Below are positions 24,118 to 47,693 of a stretch of DNA of 64,000 nt, piece by piece. Numbering within the stretch: the first letter of the stretch is position 1; each line of letters opens with the position of its first letter. The position numbers and the translations under genes are program-made. Source of the stretch: Pseudorhodobacter sp. PARRP1. GTDB lineage: Bacteria > Pseudomonadota > Alphaproteobacteria > Rhodobacterales > Rhodobacteraceae. The stretch spans positions 186,001-250,000 of the forward strand of contig NKIU01000005.1 of the NCBI GenBank assembly GCA_002256245.1. The letters are read 5' to 3'. The notes beneath the pieces were generated by a model. The model was not told the DNA's origin, did not search any database, and worked only from the letters and a program-made list of their open reading frames with translations.

Positions 24118-24184
24118 TGCCTGTGCTCTGACTTGATAACCGCGCGGGTCTACGCCTGTGTCGGGGGGCAAGGAGTCCGGACAT

Positions 24185-25456
24185 ATGGCCAACCGACTGA
24201 AACTGAATGAGAAAGCCCTGCGGGACGCGGAGCCGAAGCCGGGCGTCAGCTATCAGATCTTTGACACCGAGGTGATCGGCTTCGCGGCCCGGATTCAGGC
24301 CTCAGGTGCACGAACCTTCACCATCGACTACCGCCATGCCGGGCGGCAACGGCGCATGACCATCGGGCGCTGGCCGGAGTGGAGCGTTACCGCCGCACGC
24401 GAACGGGCCAAGGAACTGCGCCGCGCCATCGACGAGGGACAGGATCCGCTGGCGACGCGGGAGGAGTTTCGCGGGGCTCCGCGCATCAAGGACATGATCG
24501 ACCGTTACATCGCCGAACACCTGCCAAAGTTGGCGAAGAACAACGCCGCCGACCAGACGTCGATGTTGAAAAAGATGGTCGAACCTAACTGGGGCAACAA
24601 ATTGGTGACTGAGATCACCAAGTCGGATGTCGCACGGTTCCTCGATTTCGTGGCTGAGGGTCGCCCACGCCCCAGCAAGGAAAAGCCTAACAACCGCGCG
24701 CGCAAACTGGAGGGACACAAGCCCACCCCGATCCGGGCCAACCGCACGGGCGAAGTGCTGCGGAAGATGTTCACGTTGGCCATCGAATGGGAATGGCGCG
24801 CCGACAACCCTGCGCAAGGTTTCCACCGCCGCATCGAAGAGGCCCGCGAACGTTTCCTCGGCCCGGAAGAACTGACCCGCATCGCTTTGGTCCTCGATAG
24901 TGCCGAAGATCAGCGCGCGGCTGCAATCATCCGGATGTGCATGTTGACCGGCGCCCGGGTGGGAGAGGTGCGGACGGCGCGGTTTGAACAGTTTAACCTC
25001 GACTATGTCATCTGGTCGAAACCCGCTGCCACCACCAAGCAGCGCAAAATCCACCGTGTGCCGATCTCGCAGGAGGTTGTCACCATCGTTCGCCAGCGCC
25101 AACTGGTCGTCCCTCGCGGCAATCCTTGGCTGTTTCCCGGTGAGACTATCGGCCAGCCGGTGCGGGAAATCCGCCGGTTCTGGATGAAAGTTCAGAAGGA
25201 TGCCAAGCTGCCCGATCTGCGCATCCACGACCTGCGCCACACCTTCGCTTCCCTGCTGGTCAGCGGTGGTGCCTCGCTGGAAATGATCGGCAAGCTTCTG
25301 GGCCACAGCCAGATGCAGACCACGCAGCGCTACGCCCACCTGATGGATTCGCCTTTGCGGGCGGGGGTCGACACGGTGGCCAACCTCCTGCGCCCACGGC
25401 CGCGCCTTGTGCATGACGCGGCGCAGGATAGCGCCGACTTGCCAAAATCGGCCTGA
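24185..25456 (+). CDS. int: Tyrosine recombinase (prophage integrase)
   Basis: Phage integrase of 423 residues with an N-terminal DUF4102-type arm-binding domain (KLNEKALRDAEPKPG), a central core-binding domain, and a C-terminal catalytic domain with TGARVGEVR (Arg), HDLRHTFASLL (His-x-x-Arg), LLGHSQMQTTQRYAHL (His and the nucleophilic Tyr). The ATG at 24185 is preferred over an open frame beginning at 24158. It catalyses insertion and excision of the prophage running rightward. It converges with the next gene; the two stops are adjacent. Confidence 0.92.
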   Translation: MANRLKLNEKALRDAEPKPGVSYQIFDTEVIGFAARIQASGARTFTIDYRHAGRQRRMTIGRWPEWSVTAARERAKELRRAIDEGQDPLATREEFRGAPRIKDMIDRYIAEHLPKLAKNNAADQTSMLKKMVEPNWGNKLVTEITKSDVARFLDFVAEGRPRPSKEKPNNRARKLEGHKPTPIRANRTGEVLRKMFTLAIEWEWRADNPAQGFHRRIEEARERFLGPEELTRIALVLDSAEDQRAAAIIRMCMLTGARVGEVRTARFEQFNLDYVIWSKPAATTKQRKIHRVPISQEVVTIVRQRQLVVPRGNPWLFPGETIGQPVREIRRFWMKVQKDAKLPDLRIHDLRHTFASLLVSGGASLEMIGKLLGHSQMQTTQRYAHLMDSPLRAGVDTVANLLRPRPRLVHDAAQDSADLPKSA

Positions 25457-27170: not shown

Positions 27171-27559
27171 CCCGGCGCAACACCCCCGAGGCTGATCTGC
27201 AACGCGCCGTGGTGCAGGCGCTGCGTTTCGCCCTGCCCCACACGGCCATCATCCACCATTGCGCCAACGAGGTGACAGAACCCGGGCCCCGCGGTGCCAA
27301 GCGTCAGGCGATCCTGGTCGGCATGGGCGTGCATGCAGGCTTCGCCGATCTGATCGTGCTCAGCGAAGGACGAGTCCTCTTTCTCGAACTGAAAGCCCCG
27401 AAGGGCCGTCTGCGGCTTGACCAGGAGGCGTTTCGCGATGCGGTGCTGGCGCAGGGTTTCGGCTGGGCGCTAGTTCGCAGTCTCGACGATGCGCTGGGCG
27501 CACTGGCGGATCACGGCTTCACCAGCCGTGTCCGCTCAGCGCGGAGGGTGGCACCATGA
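27167..27559 (+). CDS. VRR-NUC domain nuclease
   Basis: Stand-alone VRR-NUC (PD-(D/E)xK superfamily) nuclease of 130 residues. The core is GFADLIVLSEGRVLFLELKAP, in which the Asp and the ExK of LELK are the metal-binding/catalytic set; an N-terminal EADLQRAVVQAL helix contains the family's Glu. Phage-encoded members probably process branched or replicating DNA. ATGA overlaps on both sides tie it to the replication gene. Confidence 0.85.
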   Translation: MTRRNTPEADLQRAVVQALRFALPHTAIIHHCANEVTEPGPRGAKRQAILVGMGVHAGFADLIVLSEGRVLFLELKAPKGRLRLDQEAFRDAVLAQGFGWALVRSLDDALGALADHGFTSRVRSARRVAP

Positions 27560-28524
27560 GCCACAAGGCAACCGTCTGGGCCATCCAGCAGCGCGGGCTG
27601 AAGCCTGCCACCAAGATCGTGCTGTGGTTTCTGTGCGACCGGCACAACCCGGACTTCGGCTGTTTCCCGACACAGGCTCGGCTGGCGGACGACGCGGAAA
27701 TGTCGATCTCGGCCTTGAACGAACATCTTGCCAAGTTGCAGGACCTGCGCCTGATCCACCGGGTTCGGGCGCAGGATCCCCACACCCACAAGCGCTTGGC
27801 GACACGCTACATCCTGGGGTTTGAGGATGGCTTTCCACCAGAGCCAACTCCGGAAACCGGAGACGGCTTTGCCGGAACGGAGAGCGAACAGGACAGCGAC
27901 CCATCTCCGGAATCCGGACACGGAGCCATCTCCGGATTTTCGGCAAAGCCATCTCCGGATTTTGCCCAAAGCCATCTCCGGAATCCGGAGATTAACCTTG
28001 TAAGAGAACCCCTAAGTAAACCTGTAAAGGAGGAGGAGGATGCGCAAGCGCGCGATTCCGATTTTGATCGGTTTTTCGCAGAGCTGCTGACTGCGCTGGG
28101 CTTCGCCGCCAATGCCGCCCTCCCCGCCTGGTGGCAAGGATCGCCAGCCCGCTTGCACGTTCGGCGCTGGATCAAGGATCTCGGGTTGACCGAGGATCGG
28201 ATCATCGAGACGGCAACCGAAACTCGCGGTGATCACCCCAATCCGCCCGATGGGCCCAAAGCCCTCGACCGGTTCATGGAGCGCGCCGCCCAGCGCGATG
28301 CACTGGCGGCCACAACAATTGCCAACGGCAAGAAGGCCAAGCGGCAGCGCACCGGCGAAGTGAAGCTTCCGCTCAGCGATGACGAAAAGGCGGCGTTCTA
28401 CGCCAGGATGGTCAACGCCGATGGCTATCTGCCCCAGAGCGTGATCAGCAATACGATCCGTGATGCCATGCTGGTGCGAGGCCTCGTCACTCCCGAACGT
28501 CTTCGTCAGCGGGGAGTGCGGTGA
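27556..28524 (+). CDS. Phage replication initiator-like protein (HTH_36 type)
   Basis: Protein of 322 residues. The N-terminus (about 1-95) is a winged helix-turn-helix with the HTH_36 pattern: KIVLWFLCDRHNPDFGCFPT followed by LADDAEMSISALNEHLAKL. The middle (about 95-150) is a Pro/Ser-rich linker whose coding DNA contains four iterons. The C-terminal about 170 residues are helical and end in HTH-like VISNTIRDAMLVRGLVTPERL. This layout, initiator with the origin inside its own gene, parallels lambda O. The stop overlaps the methyltransferase GTG start. Confidence 0.7.
   Translation: MSHKATVWAIQQRGLKPATKIVLWFLCDRHNPDFGCFPTQARLADDAEMSISALNEHLAKLQDLRLIHRVRAQDPHTHKRLATRYILGFEDGFPPEPTPETGDGFAGTESEQDSDPSPESGHGAISGFSAKPSPDFAQSHLRNPEINLVREPLSKPVKEEEDAQARDSDFDRFFAELLTALGFAANAALPAWWQGSPARLHVRRWIKDLGLTEDRIIETATETRGDHPNPPDGPKALDRFMERAAQRDALAATTIANGKKAKRQRTGEVKLPLSDDEKAAFYARMVNADGYLPQSVISNTIRDAMLVRGLVTPERLRQRGVR
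27901..27982 (+). repeat. Iteron array inside the replication gene, candidate origin
   Basis: Four copies of CCATCTCCGGA begin at 27901, 27926, 27949 and 27972, spaced 25, 23 and 23 bases. A related CTCCGGAAACCGGAG lies at about 27849. The two outer copies are followed by ATCCGGA and the two inner ones by TTTT. A/T-rich sequence (27991-28030) follows. Spacing near two helix turns fits cooperative binding by the encoded protein. Confidence 0.6.
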
Positions 28525-29771
28525 ATGGCATGGTGTCACGTCCCCGGCACGGATTGTCCCTCTGCGCAGGCGGCGGAGGCTTGGATCTGGGCCTCATGCT
28601 CGCTGAGCCCAGATTTCACACCCGCGCCTTCGTCGAATGGGAGGAATGGCCCCGAAGGGTTCTCGTCGCCGCCCAGCGTGCGGGATACTTCGCCCCGTCC
28701 CCGATCTGGGACGATCTGCGCAGTTTCGATGCCCGGCCTTTTCGCGGCGCTTTCGACATCGTCCTCGCCGGATATCCTTGCCAGCCCTTCAGCGCCGCCG
28801 GAAAGCGCGGGGGTGCCGACGATCCGCGCCACCTCTGGCCTGACGTCGCCCGGGTCGTCGGCGAATGCAGACCCGAATGGGTCTTTCTCGAAAACGTCGC
28901 CGGTCACGTCACTCTCGGCCTTGAAGCCGTCCTGCGAGAGCTTTGGCGCATGGGCTACACGCCTGCGGCGGGTCTGTTCTCTGCGGCAGAAGTCGGCGCG
29001 CCGCACCAGCGGCTGCGCATCTTCATCCTGGCCCACGCCAATGAGCCTGCATCCCGGCACGGATCGCTACAACCCGGCTGGCAACAGCGATTTTACCCGC
29101 AAGGCCGAGGCGCTGGCGCTGGGCATCACCAACTGGTCGACGCCGAAGGGATCGGATGGCGCGAAGGGTGGGCCGGGCCAGAGCTATGGCTCGGGCGGGA
29201 TGCCTCCCCTGCCCGCGCAGGCGGCGCAATGGCAAACGCCAGTGGCCGACGACCAAATGGATCGGGTCCGGGGCAAGATCAACAGCCGGGGCGAGCCGAA
29301 GCTGAGCGCGCAGGCGATCCAGTGGCCGACCCCGGCGGCGCAGAACTGGAAGGGCAGCAGCCCGGCCAGCGTGATCCGCGCCGATGGCAAGAGCCGGATG
29401 GATATCCTGCACTATCGGGCGGAACAGGGCTTCATCCACCCGAGCCAAGCGATCACGCCGCCTGGGCTGCAACCCTCGCATCACGCCCCGATCTCGCGCC
29501 CGCTGTGGGCTTTGATGATTGCATCGCATGGGCGTGTCGTGTCGCGGCGGATCTTGAAAGCCCGAGCGCGGCGGCGGCTGAACCCTCTGTTCGTCGGCTG
29601 GCTGATGGGTTGGCCCATCGGTCACGCGCTCTGCGCCTGCTCGGCAACGGAGTTCACCCTCTGGCAGCAGCACATGCGTGGCGCGCTCTCGCGGCTGCCC
29701 ATGGCCTCGGGCCCGTGGATCTGGCGACCGGCGGATGGGACGGAGGGTCCAGCGCAGATGAACCTCTTTGA
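28521..29771 (+). CDS. C5-cytosine DNA methyltransferase
   Basis: DNA (cytosine-5) methyltransferase of 416 residues with motifs in canonical order: SAM-binding LSLCAGGGGLDLG (12-24), catalytic GYPCQPFSAAG with Cys87, ENV at 124-126, QRLRI at 163-167, and the C-terminal motif LLGNGVHPLAAAHAWRAL near residue 380. The target-recognition region (about 170-340) is coded by DNA that is also open in the +1 frame. The GTG start at 28521 forms a GTGA overlap with the replication gene. No cognate endonuclease is adjacent, so it is probably an orphan phage methylase protecting against host restriction. Confidence 0.85.
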   Translation: MNGMVSRPRHGLSLCAGGGGLDLGLMLAEPRFHTRAFVEWEEWPRRVLVAAQRAGYFAPSPIWDDLRSFDARPFRGAFDIVLAGYPCQPFSAAGKRGGADDPRHLWPDVARVVGECRPEWVFLENVAGHVTLGLEAVLRELWRMGYTPAAGLFSAAEVGAPHQRLRIFILAHANEPASRHGSLQPGWQQRFYPQGRGAGAGHHQLVDAEGIGWREGWAGPELWLGRDASPARAGGAMANASGRRPNGSGPGQDQQPGRAEAERAGDPVADPGGAELEGQQPGQRDPRRWQEPDGYPALSGGTGLHPPEPSDHAAWAATLASRPDLAPAVGFDDCIAWACRVAADLESPSAAAAEPSVRRLADGLAHRSRALRLLGNGVHPLAAAHAWRALAAAHGLGPVDLATGGWDGGSSADEPL

Positions 29772-32837: not shown

Positions 32838-35800
32838 ATGACGGCCATCGATCGAATCCTTAAATCCTACCGCGATGCTGCTGTCACCGAACGCGAAAAG
32901 GGCACCTACTTTGAACGCCTCGGGCTGGCTTTCTTCCTGAACGACCCGGTTCAGGCTGAGGAGTACGAAGCGGTCTGGACATGGTCGGAATGGGCCAAAT
33001 CCAATGGTCGCGACGGCAAGGATGTCGGCATCGATCTGGTCGCAAAGTTGCGCAATGAGGATGGTTTTGCTGCGATCCAGGCCAAGTTCTACGCGGCCGA
33101 CACGCGAATCCAAAAGGCGAATATCGACAGTTTCATCTCCGCCTCGGGCAAAGAGCCTTTCCGCAGACGCGTCGTTCTCGACACGACCGAAAAGGAATGG
33201 GGCACCAACGCAGAGGAAATGATCCGGGATCAGGCGATCCCGGTTGTGCGCATCGGCCTGACAGATCTGCGCGAGAGCCGGATCAACTGGACCATTTTTG
33301 AGGCGCGTGGCGAGATCGTCCTCAGCGCCAAGAAAACCTTAATGGCGCACCAGCGGGATGCGCTGGCGGACGTAAGCAAGGGCCTCGCAGCGGCTGATCG
33401 CGGCAAGATGATCATGGCTTGCGGCACGGGCAAAACCTTCACCTCGCTGAAGATCGCCGAAGCCATCGCAGGCAAGGGCAAGCGCGTTCTGTTCATGGTG
33501 CCGTCGCTGGCGTTGATGTCCCAGACCGTGCGCGAATGGACCAATGACACCGAAACGCCAATCCGGGCCTTCGCTGTTTGCTCTGACGCCCATGTCGGTA
33601 AGCGCCGCAAAAGCACGGAAGACATCGCGGAAATCGAAATCCACGATCTGGCGTTTCCGGCCACCACCGACCCGGTCAAGGTTGCCGAAAAGGCGGGCGA
33701 GGACGATCTGGAACGGATGACGGTGATCTTCTCGACCTATCAGTCCATTGTCACTCTGACCCGCGCGCAGGAAGCAGGACTGCCCGACTTCGATCTGATT
33801 ATTTGCGATGAAGCACACCGCACCACCGGTGCCACCCTCGAAGGCGATGAAGAGTCGAATTTCGTCAAGATCCACAGCAACGACAATGTGAAGGCACGAA
33901 AACGCCTCTATATGACGGCGACGCCCCGGATCTTCGGCGATAATGTTCGCACCAAGGCGGATGAGGTTGGTGCGGAACTGGCGTCGATGGACAACCCCGC
34001 CCTGTTTGGCGAAACCCTGTTCTACCGCGGCTTTGGCTGGGCCGTGCAGAATGGTCTGCTCACCGACTACAAGGTCATCGTGCTGGCGATGGACGAGGGC
34101 TTGGTCAGCGCGGCCGTGCAAAAACGTCTCGGCGACGCGGGCAGCGAGCTGGTTTTGGATGACGCGACCAAGATCATCGGTTGCTACAAGGCGCTGACCA
34201 AGATCGACCTGAAGGCCGATGTCACCACCGATCCTCACCCGATGCGCCGCGCGCTGGCCTTCGCCAAGGACATCCGCAGTTCCAAACTTATCCGCGACGA
34301 ATTCACCGCCGTGGTGGATGAGTATCTCGGCCAGGACAGCTTGATCGAGAGCGACGAACCTACCAGCCACCTCCGGTGCGAAATCGAACATGTCGACGGC
34401 ACCTTCAATGCCAAAACGCGCGGGGCCTTGCTGGATTGGTTGAAGGCCGATGCGGGCGAAAACACCTGCCGCATCCTGACCAACGCCCGCTGCCTTTCCG
34501 AGGGCGTCGACGTTCCTGCCCTTGATGCGATCATGTTCCTGCATCCGCGCAAAAGCCAGATCGACGTGGTGCAATCGGTCGGGCGCGTCATGCGCAAAAC
34601 CGACACCAAGAAGATGGGCTATGTCATCCTGCCGGTCGGCGTCCCCGCCGGTGTTCCGCCCGAACAGGCGCTTGCGGACAATGAACGCTACCGTGTCGTC
34701 TGGCAGATCCTGAACGCCCTGCGCGCCCATGACGAACGCTTTGACAGCACCATCAACAAGATGTCTCTCGGCCAGGACATAAGCGACACCATCGAGATAG
34801 TTGGCATCAACGCAGAATCCGAAGAGCTGAAATCTGTCACCGCAGTCGTCCAGAAGCTGCCGAACAAAACCAAGGCCGCCGGTTCCGGTATCGGCTCGGG
34901 CGGTGGCGGCAATGGCGATGACGTGATCGAAGGCCCCGAACCCCAACAGACGGAAATAGCCTTCTCTATTGACGAGTTCTCCCGCGCCATCATGGCCAAG
35001 ATCGTCAAGAAATGCGGCACCCGCGATTATTGGGAGGATTGGTCCGCCTCCATCGCCGAAATCGCTAAGAACCACATCACCCGCCTGACCGCCCTGCTGA
35101 AAGACCCGGACACCGAAGCCCGCAAAGCCTTCGATGCTTTCCTTGGCGAACTGCGCGACGATCTGAACGATACCATATCCGAAGGCGACGCCATCGAGAT
35201 GCTCGCCCAGCACATTATCACCCTACCCGTGTTCGAGACTCTGTTCGAGGGCCACAAGTTCACCGCCGAAAACCCGGTCTCCCGCGCCATGCAGCGCGTG
35301 CTGGATGTGCTGGACGAGGCCAACCTCGACAAGGAATCCAAAGACCTCGAAAAGTTCTACGCCAGCGTCAAAATCCGCTCGCAAGGCATCACCGATCCCC
35401 AGGCCAAGCAAAAGCTGATCGTTGAGCTGTACGATAAGTTCTTCCGCCGTGCCTTTCCCCGCACCACCGAAAAGCTGGGCATCGTCTACACCCCGGTCGA
35501 GATCGTGGATTTCATCATTCACTCGGTGAACGAGGTGCTGCAATCCGAATTCGGCCAGACCCTTGGCTCCCCCGGCGTCCACATCATCGACCCCTTCACC
35601 GGCACCGGCACCTTCATCACCCGCCTGCTGCAATCCGGCCTGATCGCGCCCGAAGAGATGGAGCACAAGTTCCGCCACGAAATCCACGCCAACGAGATCG
35701 TGCTGCTGGCTTATTACATCGCCGCGATCAACATCGAGGCGGTCTATCACGGCCTGCAGGGCGGCGATTATGTACCTTTCGAGGGCATCTGCCTGACCGA

Positions 35801-37745
35801 CACCTTTCAGATGTATGAAAGCGACGACCTGATCTCGCATTACATGCCCGATAACTCGGAGCGGCGGAAGCGGCAGAAGGCGACGGATATCCGCGTGATC
35901 GTCGGGAACCCACCCTACTCGGCGGGGCAAGGCAGCGCGAATGACAACAACGCCAACGTGGCCTATCCCACCTTAGATGGTCGCATCCGCGACACCTACG
36001 TTGCCCATTCAAAGCAAACCTCGATCAAGAATCTATATGACAGCTACATTCGGGCAATTCGCTGGGGCAGCGATCGGTTGGGCAAGTCCGGCGGCGTAAT
36101 GGCATTTGTGTCGGGAAGCGCGTGGTGCGAAAGGCAGTTCGCAGATGGAATGCGGAAATGTCTTGCAGAAGAATACTCTGACCTCTTTGTCTTTCACTTG
36201 AGGGGCGATATTCGAAAAAATATGCTGAGCAAGGGCAAGGCGGGCGAAGGCGGAAACGTTTTCGGTTCTGGGAGCATGACCGGAATCGCCATCTCTATTT
36301 TTGTAAAGAATCCGAATGCGACGCATTATGGAAATATCCATTTCCACGATATCGGTGACAATATATCGGAGCGGGAAAAACTTAGCATCATAAAGAATTT
36401 CCGAAGCATGAAGGGCATAACAGACTCTGCCAACTGGCAGGTGGTTACTCCGGATGAGCACCATGACTGGTTGAATCAGCGTGACTCTAGCTTTGAAGCA
36501 TTCATCCGAATTGGCGACAAGAAAACAAAATCACAAGATGTTCTTTTTGAAACTTATACGCTTGGTATAAACTCAAATCGCGACGCATGGTGCTACAACG
36601 CATCACAGGAAAATTTGCTCCAGAGCATGGAGGCCATGATTGCGACATACAACCAAGAGGTTGTTAAGTTTTCCTCAATGCCTCAGGGCACCAAGGCGAC
36701 CGATGTAATAAACACAGACCCAAGACAGATAAGTTGGTCGAGCAGCCTCATACCCGCACTCGAAAGGGGCAAAACAGGAGAGTTTCGTCAAGAAGCTGCG
36801 ACGGTTGCCGCTTACCGACCATTCCAGAAATCCTGGCTTTACTATGATCGAATGTTCAACCATCGAACCGGGCAGCTCCCCCGCATTTTCCCAACGGGTG
36901 CCGAAGAGAACCGTGTGATCTGCGTCAGCGGCTTGGGCGCTCGTGCTGGCTTCGCTGCATTGATGACTGACAAGATTCCCAACCTTCACACGATTGACTC
37001 TGGTCAGTGTTTTCCACTGAAGCTTTTCGGCGCAAATGTTGAGGCCGACGACGCCGACTTGTTTGCAGCAGACTCCGAGGATTCTGCCTACAGTGTCCGC
37101 GACGGCATCACCGATGCTGGCCTGCAGCATTTCCAGGAAGCCTATCCTGGCGACACGATTACCAAGGAAGACCTGTTCTATTACGTCTACGGCCTGCTGC
37201 ATTCCGAGGATTACCGCGCGAAATACGCGGACAACCTGTCCAAGGAACTGCCCCGTATCCCCCGCGTGAAAACCGCCGCCGACTTCTGGGTCTTCAGCCG
37301 CGCGGGCCGCGAACTCGGCGACCTGCATGTGAATTACGAAAACGTCGAACCCTACCCAGTCACGATCAAGCAAGGCGACCTGCGCCTGGCCGACATCAAG
37401 AACCCCGAGGCCTTCTACCGCGTCACCAAATGGGCCTTTGGTAAGACCGGCAAGGACAAGGACAAGACCACCGTCATCTACAACGCCAACATCACCATGC
37501 AGGACATCCCGCTGGAGGCTTACGACTACGTCGTGAACGGCAAGCCCGCCCTTGAATGGGTGATGGAGCGCCAGGTGGTGAAAGTCGACAAGGACAGCGG
37601 CATCGAAAACGACGCCAACCGCTACGCCAGCGAAACCGTCGGAAACCCTGCCTACCCGCTGGAACTGTTCCAACGCGTCATCACCGTCAGCCTGCGAACC
37701 ATGGAAATCGTCCGCAGCCTGCCGAAGCTGGAGGTGATGGCATGA
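32838..37745 (+). CDS. Type ISP restriction-modification enzyme (single polypeptide)
   Basis: Protein of 1635 residues combining restriction, translocation, methylation and recognition, like LlaGI/LlaBIII. An Mrr-like nuclease is near residues 60-85 (DVGIDLVAKL with IQAKFY, the D...QxK set). A superfamily 2 helicase follows: Walker A ACGTGKT near 194, CDEAHR near 324, YMTATPRIF, and QSVGRVMRK near 579. The adenine methylase has DPFTGTGTF near 918 and NPPYSAGQ near 1024. A target-recognition region and C-terminal domain complete it. It methylates one strand of an asymmetric site and cuts unmethylated DNA after ATP-driven translocation. ATG 32838 with GGGG upstream is preferred over TTG 32823. 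It overlaps the next gene by ATGA. Confidence 0.92.
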   Translation: MTAIDRILKSYRDAAVTEREKGTYFERLGLAFFLNDPVQAEEYEAVWTWSEWAKSNGRDGKDVGIDLVAKLRNEDGFAAIQAKFYAADTRIQKANIDSFISASGKEPFRRRVVLDTTEKEWGTNAEEMIRDQAIPVVRIGLTDLRESRINWTIFEARGEIVLSAKKTLMAHQRDALADVSKGLAAADRGKMIMACGTGKTFTSLKIAEAIAGKGKRVLFMVPSLALMSQTVREWTNDTETPIRAFAVCSDAHVGKRRKSTEDIAEIEIHDLAFPATTDPVKVAEKAGEDDLERMTVIFSTYQSIVTLTRAQEAGLPDFDLIICDEAHRTTGATLEGDEESNFVKIHSNDNVKARKRLYMTATPRIFGDNVRTKADEVGAELASMDNPALFGETLFYRGFGWAVQNGLLTDYKVIVLAMDEGLVSAAVQKRLGDAGSELVLDDATKIIGCYKALTKIDLKADVTTDPHPMRRALAFAKDIRSSKLIRDEFTAVVDEYLGQDSLIESDEPTSHLRCEIEHVDGTFNAKTRGALLDWLKADAGENTCRILTNARCLSEGVDVPALDAIMFLHPRKSQIDVVQSVGRVMRKTDTKKMGYVILPVGVPAGVPPEQALADNERYRVVWQILNALRAHDERFDSTINKMSLGQDISDTIEIVGINAESEELKSVTAVVQKLPNKTKAAGSGIGSGGGGNGDDVIEGPEPQQTEIAFSIDEFSRAIMAKIVKKCGTRDYWEDWSASIAEIAKNHITRLTALLKDPDTEARKAFDAFLGELRDDLNDTISEGDAIEMLAQHIITLPVFETLFEGHKFTAENPVSRAMQRVLDVLDEANLDKESKDLEKFYASVKIRSQGITDPQAKQKLIVELYDKFFRRAFPRTTEKLGIVYTPVEIVDFIIHSVNEVLQSEFGQTLGSPGVHIIDPFTGTGTFITRLLQSGLIAPEEMEHKFRHEIHANEIVLLAYYIAAINIEAVYHGLQGGDYVPFEGICLTDTFQMYESDDLISHYMPDNSERRKRQKATDIRVIVGNPPYSAGQGSANDNNANVAYPTLDGRIRDTYVAHSKQTSIKNLYDSYIRAIRWGSDRLGKSGGVMAFVSGSAWCERQFADGMRKCLAEEYSDLFVFHLRGDIRKNMLSKGKAGEGGNVFGSGSMTGIAISIFVKNPNATHYGNIHFHDIGDNISEREKLSIIKNFRSMKGITDSANWQVVTPDEHHDWLNQRDSSFEAFIRIGDKKTKSQDVLFETYTLGINSNRDAWCYNASQENLLQSMEAMIATYNQEVVKFSSMPQGTKATDVINTDPRQISWSSSLIPALERGKTGEFRQEAATVAAYRPFQKSWLYYDRMFNHRTGQLPRIFPTGAEENRVICVSGLGARAGFAALMTDKIPNLHTIDSGQCFPLKLFGANVEADDADLFAADSEDSAYSVRDGITDAGLQHFQEAYPGDTITKEDLFYYVYGLLHSEDYRAKYADNLSKELPRIPRVKTAADFWVFSRAGRELGDLHVNYENVEPYPVTIKQGDLRLADIKNPEAFYRVTKWAFGKTGKDKDKTTVIYNANITMQDIPLEAYDYVVNGKPALEWVMERQVVKVDKDSGIENDANRYASETVGNPAYPLELFQRVITVSLRTMEIVRSLPKLEVMA

Positions 37746-40036
37746 CTCTGGAACGGTTTGTTCTACTCCGCAACGTTGGGCAGTTCGATAGCGCCGCCCC
37801 AAATGCTCAGTTGGGCCTCACACCTTTTTCGTTGATTTACGCAGAAAATGGTCGGGGAAAGACAACGCTCGCGTCGATTTTGCGATCACTCGCAACCGGA
37901 GACCCCTCTCTGATCACCGAACGTCAGCGGCTTGGTACCCAGGCTGCGCCACATGTCGTCGTTAGTTTCCAAGGTAACCAGTTGATTTTCCAGAATGGGA
38001 ACTGGAACGCAGCAGGACCAGACATCGCGATCTTTGACGATACGTTTGTTTCGGCAAACGTATGCTCCGGCATCGAGGTCGAAACATCGCATCGGCAGAA
38101 TCTTCACGAACTAATCCTTGGGGCGCAGGGCGTTACGCTTAACGCGGACCTTCAGCGACATATTTCTCGAGTTGAACAGCATAACTTGGATTTGCGTATG
38201 AAAGGTGATGCAATACCTGCGGAATCGCGCGGCGATCTGACGCCAAACGCCTTCTGTGCGCTTCGCGCTGATCCGGCCATTGACGTCAAGCTGCAGGAGG
38301 CAGAACGGAGAATGTCTGCGGCCAAGGCGGCAGATGCTATTCGGCAGCGTGACGGCTTCTTGCCATTTGGCCTTCCCAACTTCGACATTGTCTCGATCAA
38401 TCGCGTCCTCGGCCGAAACCTTGCCAACCTTGAAGCGGAGGCAGCCGCGGAAGTTCGTAGCCATCTGACTAGGATCGGAGCAGGTGGGGAAAAATGGGTG
38501 GCTGACGGCATCTTGCGCATACCGGGCGCTTCAGAAGGGGCCGATAGAGAAAACTGTCCATTTTGCGCACAGGACCTCAGCGGCTCTGCGTTGATACGCC
38601 ACTACCAAGCCTATTTCAGCCAAGCTTACATTGATCTGCAACAAGCAATTCGGGACGAGGGTGTGGGCGTAAAAGCCGCCCACAGTGGCGACATCCCTGC
38701 TGCGTTCGAACGGTCAGTTCGCACGGCCGCACAGACTCGCGACTTCTGGAAAAACTTCCTGACCGCCCCAGAAATCGAGGTGGATACAGCAGCGATTTCT
38801 CGGGACTGGACGGCAGCGAGGGAGGCCGTTCTCGACGTGCTTCGCGCAAAGGCTAAATCCCCACTTGATGCTATGGTCCTTCCTCATGAGCCGCTCGAGG
38901 CGATAGCGCGGTTCGAAACCCGTGTTGCAGAAATTGCAGAACTTTCTGGGCACCTCATCGCATGCAATGATCAGATCGATATCGTGAAGGAGCAAGCCGC
39001 AGCAGCTGATCTTGCAGCTCTCACAACGGACTTGAAGCGATTGAAAGCCGTGCATCAGCGCTTCCTTCCGGTGATCGCCGCGCTTTGCACCGAATATGTG
39101 CGGGAAAAAGAAGCTAAGTCGGCAACTGAGTTGCTGCGCGACCAAGCGCGCGGCGCCCTAGACAACTATAGACAGAACATTTTTCCCGCATACGAAAACG
39201 CGATTAACGATTACTTGGCTCGGTTCAATGCGGGTTTTCGACTGGGCGCTGTCGCATCTGTAAACACGCGTGCGGGTTCTTCGGCGGTGTATAACATCGT
39301 GATTAATCAACAGCCTGTAGGCTTGACCACCGAAAACGGGCCGTCCTTCCGAAATACTCTTAGCGCGGGCGACCGAAATACTCTTGCCCTTGCCTTCTTC
39401 TTCGCCTCACTTGATCAGGATCCGAACCTAGCACAGAAGATCGCAGTCATTGATGATCCAATGACTAGCTTGGACGAACACCGTTCGTTGACGACCGTTC
39501 AGGAAATGCGCAGGCTACATGCCCGCATTCAGCAAATGATCGTTCTGTCGCACTCGAAATCGTTTCTTTGCGCCCTTTGGGAAGGCGCAGACCGCAACGC
39601 CCGAACAGCAATGCGCATTGTTCGGGCTGCGGCAGGTTCCGACATCGTCACTTGGGACGTAACGGCTGATTGCATTACCGAGCATGACCGCCGACACGCA
39701 CTGGTTAGCGGTTACATCCAAGCAGCCGATCCTGCAATCGAACGCCAAGTTGCTGCTGCACTGCGGCAAATCCTTGAGGCGTTCGTGCGCGTAGCATACC
39801 CAGGCGATTTTCCACCTGGAAGTATGCTTGGGCATATCATTACGAAGAGCAGACAGCGCATTGGGGCGAACAATGAAATCCTTAATCAGCAAAATACTGA
39901 TGAACTGAGGGCCTTGCTCGACTATGCCAACCGTTTTCACCACGATACAAACCCTGCATGGCAGACTGCAGTAATTAACGACAATGAGCTTTTGGGTTTC
40001 TCGGTTAGGACGCTTCGCTTTGCGTCACGGCAGTGA
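37742..40036 (+). CDS. AAA_13 ATPase, RloC/PrrC-like candidate anticodon nuclease
   Basis: ABC/SMC-like ATPase of 764 residues. Walker A AENGRGKTT is near residues 34-42, the zinc-hook-like CPFC at 272-275 between long helical stretches, ABC signature LSAGDRNTLAL near 540, Walker B AVIDDPMTSLDE near 566, and the switch His in LSHSKSF. The C-terminal region carries R675-x3-E679 (RQILE) and His733/His734, an arrangement like the Arg-Glu-His triad of PrrC/RloC anticodon nucleases; assignment as a tRNA nuclease is inference. It overlaps the type ISP enzyme by four bases, suggesting a guard that triggers when restriction is blocked. It might instead be a DNA-end-sensing ATPase without RNase activity. 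Confidence 0.75.
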   Translation: MTLERFVLLRNVGQFDSAAPNAQLGLTPFSLIYAENGRGKTTLASILRSLATGDPSLITERQRLGTQAAPHVVVSFQGNQLIFQNGNWNAAGPDIAIFDDTFVSANVCSGIEVETSHRQNLHELILGAQGVTLNADLQRHISRVEQHNLDLRMKGDAIPAESRGDLTPNAFCALRADPAIDVKLQEAERRMSAAKAADAIRQRDGFLPFGLPNFDIVSINRVLGRNLANLEAEAAAEVRSHLTRIGAGGEKWVADGILRIPGASEGADRENCPFCAQDLSGSALIRHYQAYFSQAYIDLQQAIRDEGVGVKAAHSGDIPAAFERSVRTAAQTRDFWKNFLTAPEIEVDTAAISRDWTAAREAVLDVLRAKAKSPLDAMVLPHEPLEAIARFETRVAEIAELSGHLIACNDQIDIVKEQAAAADLAALTTDLKRLKAVHQRFLPVIAALCTEYVREKEAKSATELLRDQARGALDNYRQNIFPAYENAINDYLARFNAGFRLGAVASVNTRAGSSAVYNIVINQQPVGLTTENGPSFRNTLSAGDRNTLALAFFFASLDQDPNLAQKIAVIDDPMTSLDEHRSLTTVQEMRRLHARIQQMIVLSHSKSFLCALWEGADRNARTAMRIVRAAAGSDIVTWDVTADCITEHDRRHALVSGYIQAADPAIERQVAAALRQILEAFVRVAYPGDFPPGSMLGHIITKSRQRIGANNEILNQQNTDELRALLDYANRFHHDTNPAWQTAVINDNELLGFSVRTLRFASRQ

Positions 40037-40503
40037 AGCTTGCCTCGACGGGTGCCCCCCTGGCATGGTTCCTCCCCGGCCCCGAACGTATGCGGGGGGG
40101 CGCAGCGCGGCATTTCGCTAGCGACAGGCACTTTCACCGGGGAATCCAGGCGGAAGCCACCTGCCTGGTGGTCCTAGAAAAAGCGACTCATTATCAAAGG
40201 CTTGCGGAATCACGATCTTGGCGCGCTGGATTCTTTTGTGGAATCCAGGGAATCCACTTGGCGGAAGCCACCCCGCCGGAGGCCAGCCAGCGGAAGCCAC
40301 CTGCGAAGAAGCCATTGAATCCGCGTGCATTTTTCGTTTGACAGACCTGCCCCCCTTGACTTACCCCTTGATCATCGAAGAATTGCGCCCGGAGTATAAC
40401 CCTCGCGGGCGCTTTCGTTTTCACCCACATCGCGGATCCCAATTCTGACGCTGGCATCGCCCAGCGCGCTTCGGCACGTCCGCCTGCCTGAGAGAGCCAC
40501 CCC
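40037..40503 (+). repeat. Repeat-rich non-coding region after the defence genes
   Basis: No gene is supported. GCGGAAGCCACC occurs three times (40150-40161, 40261-40272, 40290-40301), each within longer, partly shared context; GGAATCCAGG occurs at 40141 and about 40240. CCAGGC (40146-40151) and GCCTGG (40163-40168) can form a hairpin around the first copy. Copy spacing is irregular. The region may be a boundary or recombination scar of the inserted cargo, or hold the promoter of the following methyltransferases. Confidence 0.5.
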
Positions 40504-41763
40504 ATGGACCTGGTCTTTGCGCCGAGCCAGATCGAGACTTGGCCTCTCGATCGGCTGCGCCCCTATGCCCGCAATGCCAAGATCCACGGCACCGATCAGG
40601 TGGCCAAAATCGCGGCCAGCATGGCGAAGTTCGGTTGGACCGTGCCGTGCCTTGTGGCCGACGATGGTGAACTGATCGCCGGGCACGGCCGGGTGTTGGC
40701 CGCCATCATGCTGGGGCTGAAGGACGTACCGGTGATCCGGCTCGGCCACCTCGACGAGGCCGAGCGCCGGGCTTACCGCATCGCTGACAACAAGCTGACC
40801 GAGTTGGGCGAATGGGACGAGGCCATGCTGCGCGACGAGATCGCGGGCCTGCTGGCCGAGGATTTCGACCTATCGCTGCTGGGGATCACCGACAAGGATC
40901 TGGACGCCCTGCTGCGGGATCCGGATCAGACAGAAGGCGGTGCCGTCGAGGGCGAGGATGATGTCCCCGAACCGCCGGTCACGCCGGTGTCGGTTGCGGG
41001 CGACCTCTGGCAACTCGGATCGCACCGGCTGATCTGCGGCGACAGCACGTCCGCCGATGTGGTCGGGCAGTTGCTGGGCGATGTGAAGCCACTACTGATG
41101 GTGACGGACCCGCCCTACGGCGTGGAATATGACCCCTCCTGGCGCAACCAGGCGGGCGCGGCCAAGACTAAGCGCACCGGCAAAGTGCTGAACGACGACC
41201 GGGCGGATTGGCGCGAAGCGTGGGCGCTGTTCCCCGGCGACGTGGCCTATGTCTGGCATGGCGCCCTGCATGCCACGACTGTCGCCGAGAGCCTGGTGGC
41301 GGCAGGTTTCGCCGTCAGGTCGCAGATCATCTGGGCCAAGGACCGCCTCGTCCTCAGCCGCGGCGATTATCACTGGCAGCACGAACCCTGCTGGTATGCC
41401 GTCAAGAAGACCGGCAAAGGTCACTGGGCAGGCGACCGCAAGCAAACCACCCTGTGGCACATTTCCGGCAAGGATCAGGACGCCGCCACCGTCCACGGCA
41501 CGCAAAAACCTGTCGAATGCATGCGGCGCCCCATGCTGAACAACTCCAGCCCGGGCCAAGCGGTGTATGAACCCTTCATGGGATCCGGCACCACGCTGAT
41601 CGCAGCGGAAACCACGGGGCGTGTCTGCTTCGGGATCGAATTGAACCCGGCATATGTCGATGTGGCCATCGAGCGCTGGCAGCAGTTCACCGGCGCCAAC
41701 GCTGTCCTTGCAGACACCGGCGAGACCTTTGCCGACCTGAAGGCCAAGAGGCTCGCCGCATGA
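40504..41763 (+). CDS. ParB-domain DNA methyltransferase (DPPY type)
   Basis: Protein of 419 residues. Residues about 1-120 form a ParB/Spo0J nuclease-like domain (GELIAGHGRVLAAIMLG, YRIADNKLTELGEWD). The rest is a beta-class methyltransferase in which the catalytic DPPYG comes before the SAM-binding EPFMGSGTT. DPPY favours N6-adenine methylation. This fused architecture is common in alphaproteobacterial phages and usually lacks a cognate endonuclease. It overlaps by ATGA a paralogue with a different catalytic motif. Likely roles are protection against host restriction or epigenetic control. Confidence 0.88.
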   Translation: MDLVFAPSQIETWPLDRLRPYARNAKIHGTDQVAKIAASMAKFGWTVPCLVADDGELIAGHGRVLAAIMLGLKDVPVIRLGHLDEAERRAYRIADNKLTELGEWDEAMLRDEIAGLLAEDFDLSLLGITDKDLDALLRDPDQTEGGAVEGEDDVPEPPVTPVSVAGDLWQLGSHRLICGDSTSADVVGQLLGDVKPLLMVTDPPYGVEYDPSWRNQAGAAKTKRTGKVLNDDRADWREAWALFPGDVAYVWHGALHATTVAESLVAAGFAVRSQIIWAKDRLVLSRGDYHWQHEPCWYAVKKTGKGHWAGDRKQTTLWHISGKDQDAATVHGTQKPVECMRRPMLNNSSPGQAVYEPFMGSGTTLIAAETTGRVCFGIELNPAYVDVAIERWQQFTGANAVLADTGETFADLKAKRLAA

Positions 41764-43088
41764 ACGCGCCCCTTGTGCCCAAGCAGATCGAATACTGGCC
41801 GCTGGCCCAGCTGAAGCCCTATGCCCGCAATGCCAAAACCCACGACGCCAACCAGGTCGCGAAGATCGCCGCCAGCATGGCCGAGTTTGGCTGGACGGTG
41901 CCGGTGCTGGTGGCCGACGATGGCGAGTTGATCGCTGGCCACGGTCGCATCCTGGCGGCGGCGCACCTCGGGCTGGCCGAAGTTCCGGTCATCGTGCTGG
42001 GCCATCTGACCGGAGCCCAGCGCCGGGCTTATCGCATCGCCGACAACAAGTTGACCGAGCTGGGCGGGTGGGACGAGGCGCTTCTGCTGCAGGAACTGCA
42101 GGCACTGCTGGCCGAGGATTTCGACCTCGGACTGATCGGAATCCCCGAGGATGAGCTGGACGCCCTCTTGGCAGATGCAGACGACCGCCAGAAGATTTCT
42201 GACGACGCTGCCGATGCCATCCCCGAACCGCCCGCCGAACCAATCACCCGTTCCGGCGATATCTGGGCGCTGGGCAAGCATCGCCTCTGCTGCGGTGATG
42301 CCACCGATCCATCCGCCGTGGCCAAACTGATGCAGGGCGAGCAGGCCACGCTGATGTTCACCTCGCCGCCCTATGCCCAGCAGCGCGACTACGGCGCGGC
42401 CAAGGAAAAGGTTGGCGATTGGGATGCGCTAATGCAGGGCGTGTTCGCCACGGCACCGGTCACAAAGGACGCGCAGCTGCTGGTCAATCTCGGCCTCGTG
42501 CACCGTGACAGCGAATGGCAGCCCTATTGGGAAGGATGGGTGGAATGGATGCGCACATCTGGTTGGCGGCGCTTTGGCTGGTATGTCTGGGATCAGGGCC
42601 CGGGTCTGCCAGGCGACTGGAACGGACGATTAGCCCCGTCGCACGAGTTCATTTTCCACTTCAACCGCAGCCCGCGCAAACCGCACAAGACCGTGCCGTC
42701 CAAGCACGCGGGCGAAACCCTTGGCGGCGGTGGGCTGCGCGGGGCAGACGGCACCGTGCATGCCAAGACCGGATCGGGCAACGCGATCCAGAGCCACCGC
42801 ATTCCCGACACCGTCTTCCGGATCATGCGCCACAAGGGCGGGCTGGGTGCAGCCGGATCGCATCCGGCCGTGTTCCCGGTTGCGCTGGTCGAGGCGGTGC
42901 TGACCGCGTTTTCGGATCCGAGCGATCTGATCTATGAGCCGTTTTGCGGCTCCGGCACCCAGCTAGTCGCGGCGGAACGCGCTGGGCGGCGGTGCTGCGC
43001 GATGGAACTGGACCCGGCCTATTGCGACGTCGCCGTTCGGCGGTGGGAGATTGCAACTGGCAAGATGGCCGAGCGGATGATCGCTTGA
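41760..43088 (+). CDS. ParB-domain DNA methyltransferase (SPPY type)
   Basis: Protein of 442 residues, paralogue of 40504-41763. The ParB-like N-domain is nearly the same (PYARNAKTHDANQVAKIAAS, AGHGRILAAAHLG), but the catalytic half is different: TSPPYAQQRDYG replaces DPPYG, and the SAM motif is EPFCGSGTQ. SPPY is typical of N4-cytosine methylases. The tandem arrangement suggests duplication of the ParB-like half followed by acquisition of a second methylase specificity. Its end converges with the next, minus-strand gene. Confidence 0.88.
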   Translation: MNAPLVPKQIEYWPLAQLKPYARNAKTHDANQVAKIAASMAEFGWTVPVLVADDGELIAGHGRILAAAHLGLAEVPVIVLGHLTGAQRRAYRIADNKLTELGGWDEALLLQELQALLAEDFDLGLIGIPEDELDALLADADDRQKISDDAADAIPEPPAEPITRSGDIWALGKHRLCCGDATDPSAVAKLMQGEQATLMFTSPPYAQQRDYGAAKEKVGDWDALMQGVFATAPVTKDAQLLVNLGLVHRDSEWQPYWEGWVEWMRTSGWRRFGWYVWDQGPGLPGDWNGRLAPSHEFIFHFNRSPRKPHKTVPSKHAGETLGGGGLRGADGTVHAKTGSGNAIQSHRIPDTVFRIMRHKGGLGAAGSHPAVFPVALVEAVLTAFSDPSDLIYEPFCGSGTQLVAAERAGRRCCAMELDPAYCDVAVRRWEIATGKMAERMIA

Positions 43089-45178: not shown

Positions 45179-45718
45179 ATGGACGGGATGAGTGAGCGAG
45201 AATATTCCGGCCATTCTGGCCTGTCTCGCGGGGCCATTCAGAAAGCCCGCAAGGCGGGTCGACTGGTGGTTTTTGGCGATGGGTCGATCAATGCGGCCGC
45301 GTCAGATGCGCGCCGGTCAGAGATGACGGACCCGGACCAGCAGCGGCGCAGCACGGGTGGCGGCGACAGTAGCTTTTCGGGGCCCGCCGACAGTTCGTCC
45401 TATCTGAAAGCGCGCACGGCACTGACGGTCTACCAGGCGCAGGAACGCCAGCTGGCGATCCAGAAGAAGAAGGGCACGCTGGTCGACCGCGCGCGGGCAG
45501 AGGCGTTGGTGTTCCGCCTGGCGCGGCAGGAACGAGATGTCTGGGTGACATGGCCCAGCAGAGTGGCGGCGCTGATGGCGGCCGAAGTGGCAGCGGAGGT
45601 GGAGAAACAGACCAACAAACCGGTGATGATCGAGGCCGCGATCCTGCAAAGGGTGCTGGAAACCCATGTCAGAGAACAGCTCGCAGCCCTCGCCGACCTC
45701 CGAGTCTCCCTGGGGTAA
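45179..45718 (+). CDS. Phage terminase small subunit
   Basis: Protein of 179 residues with an N-terminal helix-turn-helix (SEREYSGHSGLSRGAIQKAR) of the kind that binds packaging sites, a variable linker, and a helical C-terminal part with LTVYQAQERQLAIQKKKGTL and a likely large-subunit-binding end. It recognises phage DNA and delivers it to the packaging motor. The last 53 bases overlap the large subunit gene. Confidence 0.8.
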   Translation: MDGMSEREYSGHSGLSRGAIQKARKAGRLVVFGDGSINAAASDARRSEMTDPDQQRRSTGGGDSSFSGPADSSSYLKARTALTVYQAQERQLAIQKKKGTLVDRARAEALVFRLARQERDVWVTWPSRVAALMAAEVAAEVEKQTNKPVMIEAAILQRVLETHVREQLAALADLRVSLG

Positions 45719-47693
45719 TGAAGATGATCTGACCGCCGATCTCGACCTCGGGTTTGACGGGGCCGAGGATATCCTGCGCACCTGGCGTCGGGGCATGCGG
45801 CCCGACCCGGACCTGACGGTGTCGGAATGGGCCGATCAACATCGCTGGCTGTCGTCGCGCGCCAGCGCCGAGCCGGGGCGTTACCGGACGGCGCGCACGC
45901 CCTATCTGCGCGAGATCATGGATGCGCTGTCGCCGCGCCACCCGGCCCAGCGCATCTCATTCATGAAGGCAGCGCAGGTTGGGGCGACCGAGGCGGGCAA
46001 CAACTGGATCGGCTTCGTGATCCATCATGCGCCCGGGCCGATGCTGGCCGTGTTGCCGACAGTCGAAATGGCCAAGCGCACTTCGCGCGGGCGATTGGAC
46101 CCGCTGATCGCAGACAGCCCGGCTTTGCGCGAACGTGTCAATCCGGCCCGCTCGCGGGATGCGGGCAATTCGATGCTGTCCAAGGAATTCCCTGGCGGCA
46201 TCCTGGTGCTGACCGGTGCGAATTCCGCCACCGGCCTGCGGTCGATGCCCGCGCGATATATCTTTCTGGACGAGGTCGATGCCTATCCGGCTTCGGCCGA
46301 AGAAGAAGGCGATCCGGTCACGCTGGCCGAAGCCCGCACGACGACCTTCTCGCACCGGCGCAAGGTGTTCATGGTTTCGACGCCCACGATCCGGGGCCTG
46401 AGCCGGATCGAGCGTGAGTTTGAAGCCAGCGATCAACGCCGTTACTTCGTGCCTTGCCCGCATTGCGGGGCAATGCAATGGCTGCAGTTTGAGCGGTTGC
46501 GCTGGGCGAAGGGTCAACCGGAAACCGCCGCCTATCATTGCGAGGCCTGCGAAAAGCCCATCGCCGAGCATCACAAGACGGCGATGTTGGAGCATGGCGA
46601 GTGGCGGCCGACTGCTGTTTCTAACGATCCGCATTCGATTGGCTTCCATATCTCTGCGCTCTATTCGCCGATGGGCTGGAAAAGCTGGCAGCAGATCGCG
46701 CGGGACTGGCTGGCGGCCCAAGGCTCCGACGAGATGTTGCGCGCCGCGCGCAACACACTGTTGGGCGAGACGTGGGTGGAATCGGGCGATGCGCCGGAAT
46801 GGCAACGTCTGGCGGATCGGCGCGAGATGTTCGCGGCCACGGTGCCGCATCTCGGGTTGTTCCTGACCGCCGGGGCCGACGTGCAGAAGGACCGGATCGA
46901 GGTCGACGTCTGGGCCTGGGGACGCGGCCTCGAAAGTTGGCTGGTCGAGCACATCGTCATTTCAGGCGGGCCAGAAGATCCCGCTGCATGGGATAAACTG
47001 ACAGCCCTCCTCGGGCGGACATGGGCGCATGAAAGCGGTGCCGTCATGCAGCTGTCCAAACTGGCCATCGACACCGGTTATGAGGCCCCGGCAGTTTACG
47101 CCTGGTCGCGGGCAGCGGGTTACGCCCAAGTGACACCGATCAAGGGCGTGGAAAGCTTCAACCGTTCCACGCCGGTGTCGGGGCCGACCTTTGTCGACGC
47201 CACCATCGGCGGCAAACGGCTGCGCAGGGGCGCGCGGCTTTGGACCATCGCCGTCTCGACATTCAAGGCGGAAACCTATCGCTTTCTGCGGTTGGAGCGG
47301 CCGAGCGATGAAGATCGGGCGCTGGGCGTCTGCGATCCAGCGGGCACGATGCACTTGCCTGCTTGGGCGGACACCGAATGGCTGAAGCAGCTGGTGGCCG
47401 AACAGATGGTCACGGTGCGCAACAAGCGCGGCTTCGGCCATCAGGAATGGCAGAAGATGCGTGAACGAAACGAGGCGCTGGACTGCCGGGTCTACGCCCG
47501 GGCGGCAGCATGGATCCTCGGCGCCGACCGCTGGGACGAGGCGACCTGGCGGTCGCTGGAAGCCCAAGCAGGCGTCGAGACCAAAGAACAGGTTGTGGCC
47601 GTGACGGTAGAGCAGACCGCCCCGACCGCAGGAACCGTGCTGACACCGCGCCGCCGCCGCTCGGGCGCGGTGACTCCCAAATACATGAGGTAG
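45666..47693 (+). CDS. Phage terminase large subunit (GpA type)
   Basis: Lambda gpA-like packaging ATPase/nuclease of 675 residues, usual length. A degenerate Walker A is in MKAAQVGATEAGN, Walker B in YIFLDEVDAYP, and a zinc-ribbon-like CPHCG...CEACEK in the middle. The C-terminal nuclease region includes LAIDTGYEAPAVYAW. It cuts concatemers and pumps DNA into the procapsid. Together with the gpW, portal, protease, decoration and capsid genes it defines a lambda-type head module. Confidence 0.92.
   Translation: MSENSSQPSPTSESPWGNEDDLTADLDLGFDGAEDILRTWRRGMRPDPDLTVSEWADQHRWLSSRASAEPGRYRTARTPYLREIMDALSPRHPAQRISFMKAAQVGATEAGNNWIGFVIHHAPGPMLAVLPTVEMAKRTSRGRLDPLIADSPALRERVNPARSRDAGNSMLSKEFPGGILVLTGANSATGLRSMPARYIFLDEVDAYPASAEEEGDPVTLAEARTTTFSHRRKVFMVSTPTIRGLSRIEREFEASDQRRYFVPCPHCGAMQWLQFERLRWAKGQPETAAYHCEACEKPIAEHHKTAMLEHGEWRPTAVSNDPHSIGFHISALYSPMGWKSWQQIARDWLAAQGSDEMLRAARNTLLGETWVESGDAPEWQRLADRREMFAATVPHLGLFLTAGADVQKDRIEVDVWAWGRGLESWLVEHIVISGGPEDPAAWDKLTALLGRTWAHESGAVMQLSKLAIDTGYEAPAVYAWSRAAGYAQVTPIKGVESFNRSTPVSGPTFVDATIGGKRLRRGARLWTIAVSTFKAETYRFLRLERPSDEDRALGVCDPAGTMHLPAWADTEWLKQLVAEQMVTVRNKRGFGHQEWQKMRERNEALDCRVYARAAAWILGADRWDEATWRSLEAQAGVETKEQVVAVTVEQTAPTAGTVLTPRRRRSGAVTPKYMR

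Follow-up and report, generated by a model that had tools for sequence, protein, structure and literature searches.

We report here that a 64,000-nucleotide stretch of the Pseudorhodobacter sp. PARRP1 genome (contig NKIU01000005.1, positions 186,001 to 250,000; hereafter the window, numbered from its first letter) carries, as cargo of a tailed prophage, the gene of a type ISP restriction-modification (R-M) enzyme and, overlapping its stop codon, the gene of an AAA_13 ATPase that resembles RloC. We favor, at a probability of about one half, the explanation that the two genes constitute a prophage-borne two-line anti-phage module, with the ISP enzyme in front and a self-gated RNase of RloC-like type as its backup.

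Type ISP enzymes are defined as single chains with an Mrr-like nuclease, a translocase, a gamma-type methyltransferase and a C-terminal target recognition domain (PMC3874165). Their translocation is driven by ATP, and their cleavage involves two sites. The 1635-residue protein of the window agrees with this definition and, judged from its domains and motifs, is an intact type ISP enzyme, as the initial annotation of this stretch had proposed. Pfam places Mrr_cat_2 at residues 35-156, ResIII at 166-364 and ISP_coupler at 731-855, followed in the C-terminal half by N6_Mtase at 860-1033 and Type_ISP_C at 1236-1609 (353 bits), which is the complete order of Mrr nuclease, superfamily 2 helicase, coupler, methyltransferase and recognition domain. 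The motif letters DLVA (at 66), QAK (81), GTGKT (196) and DEAH (324) in the nuclease-helicase part, and DPFTGTG (918) and NPPY (1024) in the methyltransferase part, are present, as expected of the respective active sites. A PD-QxK motif has been described for the type ISP nuclease (PMC3874165). The closest sequences in the PDB are those of LlaBIII (4xqk) and LlaGI (5ffj), with which the window enzyme shares the full domain order and motifs, but from which it differs in sitting in a prophage and in being coupled to an AAA_13 gene.

The second gene encodes 764 residues, and the two reading frames, their lengths and their ATGA overlap were correctly given in the initial annotation, as was the numbering of the CPFC, R675, E679, H733 and H734 residues of its product (Table 1). 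Pfam AAA_13 matches this protein at 102 bits (cut-off 36), with the best stretch at residues 205-737, and a profile search of the PDB returned Rad50-type heads as its matches at E <0.05. An AlphaFold model of the whole protein (predicted local distance difference test, pLDDT, 85.8; predicted template modeling score, pTM, 0.52) has long helices and matches SMC/Rad50 heads and the Lamassu LmuACB chain; by these comparisons the protein is a RloC-like ABC ATPase with an SMC/Rad50-type head. We aligned it with its counterparts from 51 of 80 genome loci of its family, chosen by us, and in this 52-row alignment C272, C275, R675, E679, H733 and H734 are identical in all 52 sequences, so that their conservation is not a matter of chance; the gap from E679 to H733 is 53 residues in 51 of the 52. 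When residues 618-764 were modeled alone (pLDDT 90.8, pTM 0.79), the top Foldseek match in the PDB was the HEPN protein 2hsb (probability 0.97, E 0.098), with more HEPN entries in the top 50. The C-terminal bundle thus resembles HEPN most closely, below significance.

Table 1. Positions of the features discussed, within the window
Feature	Position	Strand	Details and basis
Phage integrase (prophage backbone)	24158..25456	+	PHROGs, 230 bits
O-like replication initiation protein (backbone)	27556..28524	+	PHROGs
RmrA-like antitoxin, helix-turn-helix (HTH_3) and Peptidase_M78, 399 aa	30519..31718	-	PADLOC RmrA, 686 bits; Pfam
RmrT-like toxin of the RosmerTA pair, 233 aa	31750..32451	-	PADLOC RmrT, 343 bits
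Type ISP R-M enzyme gene	32838..37745	+	1635 aa; reading frame and motifs intact
Variable part of the ISP enzyme, residues 1091-1420	36108..37097	+	Identity by region against four close relatives
RloC-like ABC ATPase gene (AAA_13), predicted ABC-HEPN RNase	37742..40036	+	764 aa; Pfam, PADLOC, models
ATGA, ISP stop overlapping AAA_13 start	37742..37745	+	Ends of the reading frames
Walker A, residues 34-42 (AENGRGKTT)	37841..37867	+	N36, R38, G39, K40 and T41 invariant in the 52-row alignment
CPFC (C272-C275), CxxC of zinc-hook type	38555..38566	+	Both Cys in 52/52
HEPN-like C-terminal helical bundle, residues 640-764	39659..40033	+	AlphaFold2 (AF2) model, Foldseek
R675-x3-E679	39764..39778	+	52/52; aligns with R-x3-E of distant AAA_13 proteins (D in one)
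H733-H734	39938..39943	+	52/52; H734 in the column of the Ser-His histidine of L226, L227 and L229
Two backbone genes, relatives in L144 annotated as site-specific DNA methyltransferases	40504..43088	+	Annotation of relatives
Terminase large subunit (backbone)	45666..47693	+	PHROGs phrog_15, 893 bits

RloC is an anticodon nuclease that excises the wobble nucleotide of tRNA and is activated by DNA ends. It has been defined by Arg-x3-Glu-x36-52-His, often with Ser before the His, together with a CxxC zinc hook and a length of 658-897 residues (PMC2610378). The predicted protein shares with this description a Rad50-like ATPase with CxxC (the zinc hook being read from sequence and model), a length inside the published range and a C-terminal R-x3-E...H, and, like RloC, its family is sometimes linked to R-M genes (PMC2610378). 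It differs in an E-x54-H734 spacing in place of 36-52, in having His-His rather than the usual Ser-His, and in its best profile, PDC-S06, as well as in the overlap of its gene with that of an ISP enzyme; the likeness is judged by the published description of RloC. In five more distant AAA_13 proteins that were aligned, the counterpart of R675 is R in every case and that of E679 is E in four, and at the position of H733-H734 three of them (L226, L227 and L229, the last matching the profile of the window protein's own family at 469 bits) carry Ser-His and a fourth, L230, His-His. From this alignment and the published RloC motif we take R675, E679 and H734 to be the most likely catalytic set; R675 and E679 stand as initially annotated, and H733 gives way to its neighbor as the likelier catalytic histidine. 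No R precedes H733 or H734 in the window protein at the spacing of the HEPN motif Rx4-6H, R731 is present in 27 of the 52 aligned sequences, and PrrC and RloC have nonetheless been classed as HEPN (PMC3710099).

PrrC is shorter (341-416 residues), is without a zinc hook and always occurs in association with type Ic systems (PMC2610378, PMC3874168); its type I enzyme keeps it silent until T4 Stp releases it (PMC3710099, PMC3874168). RloC has an internal switch, and inducers of DNA breaks activate it even in R-M-deficient mutants (PMC3710099, PMC3874168). Membership of the AAA_13 protein in PrrC was rejected on size, on the zinc hook and on the match to the PADLOC PrrC profile, which is a local ATPase match (26.5 bits, residues 540-625). 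The label "RloC/PrrC-like" originally given to the protein accordingly keeps its first half, for the ABC ATPase, the CxxC and the R-x3-E...H, and loses its second.

For the module that we favor, the anatomy, the conservation, the distribution across genomes and the exchange of cassettes were observed, whereas co-expression, cleavage of RNA, tRNA as the target, the trigger and a working connection to the ISP enzyme are what we infer. It would work as follows. As a first line, the type ISP enzyme would cut unmodified incoming DNA. As a second line, a latent RloC-like ABC ATPase, likely made from the same message through ATGA coupling, would hold in reserve a HEPN-like C-terminal domain (R675, E679, H734) whose predicted activity is RNA cleavage, most likely at tRNA anticodons; such cleavage would stop translation when restriction fails to clear the infection. 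The likeliest trigger is a general one sensed by the protein's own ABC/CxxC region, for instance the linear DNA ends that arise in infection, as published for RloC. We prefer such a trigger to release from a dedicated grip of the ISP enzyme because the family has members next to type I systems, to various type II systems and to ISP enzymes, and others for which no such partner was detected.

The company that the family keeps is thus central to the argument. Plasmid-borne members at 62-64% identity to the window protein lie beside a type I operon (L004) and a BsuBI/PstI-type system (L005), another (L006) lies beside an Eco57I-methylase/PaeR7I system, and a fourth (L007) has no R-M gene in a possibly incomplete gene table; members at 62-66% identity have partners of several R-M types. 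The wider census covered 80 of 165 relatives from a scan of 84,980 species genomes, and in 49 of these 80 the sequence extends for 5 kb to either side. A strict profile count found R-M genes within 6.5 kb in 16 of the 80; it excludes ParB-fused methylases since these also occur in phage backbones, and rises to 27 when they are counted. The R-M share of open reading frames (ORFs) was 26/350 at 0-3 kb, 5/294 at 3-6.5 kb and 2/251 at 6.5-10 kb (p 0.0025 by Fisher test when 0-6.5 kb is compared with 6.5-10 kb, ignoring kinship among the loci). The order is hsdM, hsdS, AAA, hsdR in L072, L078 and L094 (with extra ORFs between some) and hsdM, hsdS, AAA in L080, with Pfam finding Methylase_S in these four and L064, HsdM in L078 and L080, and portions of HsdR in L078 and L072; and in L064, L072, L078 and L094 the first 4 nt of the AAA ORF overlap the end of hsdS, just as they overlap the ISP gene here. 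The gene prrC is likewise placed between hsdS and hsdR. The arrangement of these relatives inside type I operons recalls prrC, described as "embedded in" its type I operon (PMC3874165), and the AAA_13 protein resembles PrrC of EcoprrI in accompanying an R-M enzyme, but with its 764 residues and conserved CxxC it is linked to an ISP enzyme and not to a type Ic hsd operon.

In the remaining 64 of the 80 family loci no R-M gene was detected within 6.5 kb by the limited set of profiles used, and these data, with flanks that are also often short, do not show a coupling to R-M genes to be general. This is what might be expected of an independent passenger, that is, of a stand-alone AAA_13 defense gene which landed after the ISP stop and for which the overlap means shared expression only. 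For the loci without an R-M match 179 of 233 neighboring ORFs were scanned (103 with PADLOC, 76 with Pfam), and the matches listed, which are those of the 25 commonest families in each scan, include other defense profiles, namely HamC (Hma), Qat, Iet, AbiU and AriAB (PARIS), each in 1-3 of the 103 proteins; moreover, the best PADLOC profile of the window protein, PDC-S06 (199 bits), is a single-gene candidate. The enrichment of R-M genes within 3 kb and the placement in type I operons, however, exceed what random landing readily explains, and the 4-nt overlap recurs in four loci, so that we hold an independent passenger to be rather unlikely.

Several points weigh against the self-gated backup that we favor, in addition to the 64 loci just described. 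The Foldseek searches of the C-terminal domain gave no match with E <0.001 in the PDB or among viral models, the search of viral models yielding no clear match at all, and when the C-terminal profile was compared by hhalign with the C-termini of two other AAA_13 proteins, the probability was 1.6 (E 0.032) over 19 columns only. Among the distant proteins L226 has D in the E679 column, and the Ser-His of L228 falls outside the columns of H733-H734. The gap from Glu to His in the family, 53 residues to H733 or 54 to H734, lies just outside the RloC range of 36-52, the literature searched holds no report of RNase activity for the AAA_13 family, and the proposed trigger, DNA ends, is borrowed by analogy from RloC.

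The initial annotation had seen in the ATPase a guard of the ISP enzyme, and had proposed to collect adjacent pairs across genomes, with a lack of recurrence counting against the idea; the outcome comes close to such a lack, and a conserved or dedicated link with ISP enzymes is not supported. An ISP gene neighbors the AAA_13 gene in one of the 80 genome loci (L097), 12 nt downstream and hence in reverse order, with an AAA_13 protein 46% identical to that of the window, and none was found in the examined stretches of 4 viral loci of the family. Conversely, a set of 67 further ISP loci, drawn from genomes, plasmids and viral contigs, contains none with an AAA_13 gene within 5 kb. Flanks of 1 kb or more on either side are present in 55 of these 67, and 57 cover 80% or more of the ISP enzyme, the 10 shorter ones including L140 and L142, in which the nuclease-helicase half is missing; 29 of 70 loci (L194 to L222, mainly a helicase match) and 4 repeats were left out. 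Two weak AAA_13 signals were set aside, a 509-residue ORF beside the ISP gene of L146 (14 bits, annotated as a sugar ABC transporter ATPase) and a 301-residue ORF 7 kb from that of L190 (30 bits). The source genome itself has one ISP enzyme and one close member of the AAA_13 family, and the other 194 of 195 related genomes searched yielded one further, partial match to that family, which is accordingly sparse. A quick tree of 98 rows, which is rough, has no bootstrap and contains several long branches (L003, with 343 residues, was excluded), groups the window with alphaproteobacterial rows and the type I-linked L004, and has L097 as an outlying branch to the remaining 88 rows of the main group. 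From the census counts and this position of L097, the pairing seems to be rare and to have arisen twice; a single origin was rejected, as two label changes are needed in the tree, and a conserved ISP-AAA_13 operon was rejected on the two censuses.

A true guard, an ABC-HEPN protein that the ISP enzyme would bind and keep inactive until a phage antirestriction protein frees it, as with EcoprrI and PrrC, would nevertheless be in keeping with the ATGA overlap, with the apparently independent pairing of two distant family members with ISP enzymes, and with the starts of the AAA gene inside the end of hsdS in four loci and here at the end of a gene whose recognition domain lies in its C-terminal half. 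It is because the AAA gene repeatedly sits directly after a DNA-recognition gene that we keep this explanation in play, as an unlikely one; the absence of the gene from the vicinity of all 67 other ISP enzymes speaks against it, as does the fact that the partners of the family include simple type II enzymes without an obvious shared surface. We prefer a self-gated backup because a PrrC-type guard keeps to one fixed partner, whereas the AAA_13 family has several or none, and an interchangeable one because relatives are so often found beside other restriction enzymes.

The exchange of genes around the ISP gene was directly observed in four relatives with a common backbone, L144 (a plasmid record of Roseicitreum antarcticum that has a terminase gene) and the viral contigs L148, L149 and L150. 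Homology to the window extends up to 30.42-30.43 kb and resumes at the start of the ISP gene (32.78-32.84 kb), breaks again at the ISP stop (37732-37745) and returns at 40046-40056, just past the AAA_13 stop at 40036, although in L149 the block beyond 40056 is only about 216 nt. Neither the AAA_13 protein nor RmrA or RmrT has a tblastn match (E 1e-3) in the stretches of these four relatives that were examined. The upstream slot instead holds a DUF262 gene in L144, a 685-residue ORF at the same place in L150, a 425-residue ORF with no PADLOC match in L148 and no more than about 80 nt in L149. Downstream, the slot is occupied by a 127-residue ORF with no Pfam match followed by an RNase_T/BRCT protein in L144 (with ORFs of the same two lengths in L150), an RNase_T protein, a UG9-type reverse transcriptase (793 bits) and a PolA-like partner (577 bits) in L148 (14309-18527), and an AlbA_2/HATPase protein in L149; in L152, where the end of the ISP gene is 91% identical in DNA, a 138-residue ORF lies between ISP and methylase. 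That close phages retain the ISP enzyme with other, unrelated genes in the AAA_13 slot argues against a true guard, and would suit an independent passenger. Within the ISP enzyme, residues 1236-1420 are 31-36% and residues 1091-1235 48-52% identical to those of the four relatives, all other regions being 76-97% identical, and for this reason the recognition domain has apparently been replaced between related phages, likely as a switch of specificity. Exchangeable anti-phage genes at one place of a backbone are known from the defense hotspots of P2 and P4 phages (PMC9122126); the phage family is a different one here, and the ISP gene stays in place while the flanking genes change on both sides.

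One may also speculate about a plug-in guard, which would dock on the recognition part of whichever R-M enzyme precedes it (HsdS elsewhere, the ISP domain here) and read the loss of a bound, working complex. If this were true, one guard family would serve unrelated enzymes and a phage would swap guards like cartridges while keeping its ISP enzyme; we consider it improbable, and continue to favor the self-gated backup.

The assignment to a tailed prophage follows from the PHROGs names of the integrase, replication and terminase proteins (Table 1) and from those of a head maturation protease (49428), a major head protein (51249) and a tape measure protein (55912). G+C content is 53-60% over 30-40 kb as against 62-65% over 40-64 kb. 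The upstream slot is filled by a RosmerTA pair divergent from the ISP gene, with toxicity and neutralization predicted; neither this pair nor the prophage had been mentioned in the initial annotation of the two genes. RosmerTA systems combine an ImmA-type protease antitoxin, RmrA, with varied toxins, and one phage-borne member has been tested in defense (PMC10440598); the window pair, with an ImmA-type protease RmrA adjoining RmrT, agrees with this gene arrangement. An RmrT at 78% identity was seen beside an XRE regulator on a Rhodobacter xanthinilyticus plasmid, with no ISP enzyme annotated in the stretch shown. The prophage also carries a further DNA methyltransferase gene (28521-29771), which by our reading is of the 5-methylcytosine type, and the genes at 40504-43088, which match the annotated methyltransferases of L144, are by our reading ParB-like fusions; these methyltransferases perhaps protect the prophage from host restriction.

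Companions such as the AAA_13 gene are not peculiar to the window. A same-strand ORF of at least 100 residues starts between -33 and +40 nt from the ISP stop in 23 of the 67 ISP loci, some of these ORFs being maybe chance frames. Where Pfam recognizes the product, they encode GHKL ATPases (L146, with a 4-nt overlap, and L143), PIF1 helicases (L132, L138), an AlbA_2/HATPase protein (L149), a Fic protein (L189) and a PD-(D/E)XK nuclease (L181), and Pfam gave no match for those of L145, L155, L173 and L178. Since varied gene types follow ISP stops, exchangeable companions are common and AAA_13 is one of many. For instance, on the Phaeobacter plasmid L146 (12914-16050) the GHKL ATPase is followed by a 374-residue protein with no Pfam match, a pair that is possibly a GHKL analogue of ABC-HEPN, and on the Peteryoungia plasmid L147 (6141-14473) an ATP-binding protein and RloB precede the ISP gene and an AAA_15 ATPase follows it. 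In L189 (12806-13861) a Fic/DOC gene lies 3 nt after the ISP gene of a viral contig, and combinations of R-M with DOC have been mentioned before (PMC3710099).

The concept of R-M as a first line with a HEPN suicide RNase behind it has been published, along with the occurrence of ABC-HEPN genes in prophages and in R-M operons (PMC3710099), and the window module shares that concept with the R-M-linked ABC-HEPN and GHKL-HEPN systems described there; it differs in its type ISP partner, which is not among the partners described in the parts of that paper that were accessible. The pairing of a type ISP enzyme with a RloC-like gene, which the initial annotation did not know as described, is undescribed within the literature searched, which covered a minority of subscription papers and preprints; one review treats both, separately.

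The best-known case of an R-M system backed by a suicide RNase is EcoprrI with PrrC. That a single RloC-like family should occur next to enzymes of type I, type II and type ISP, and also without any, offers a sharp test of whether such proteins sense their partner or the DNA damage that all of the partners make. Phages that keep their ISP enzyme while its recognition domain and the flanking defense genes differ are, in addition, a place to find further backup effectors.

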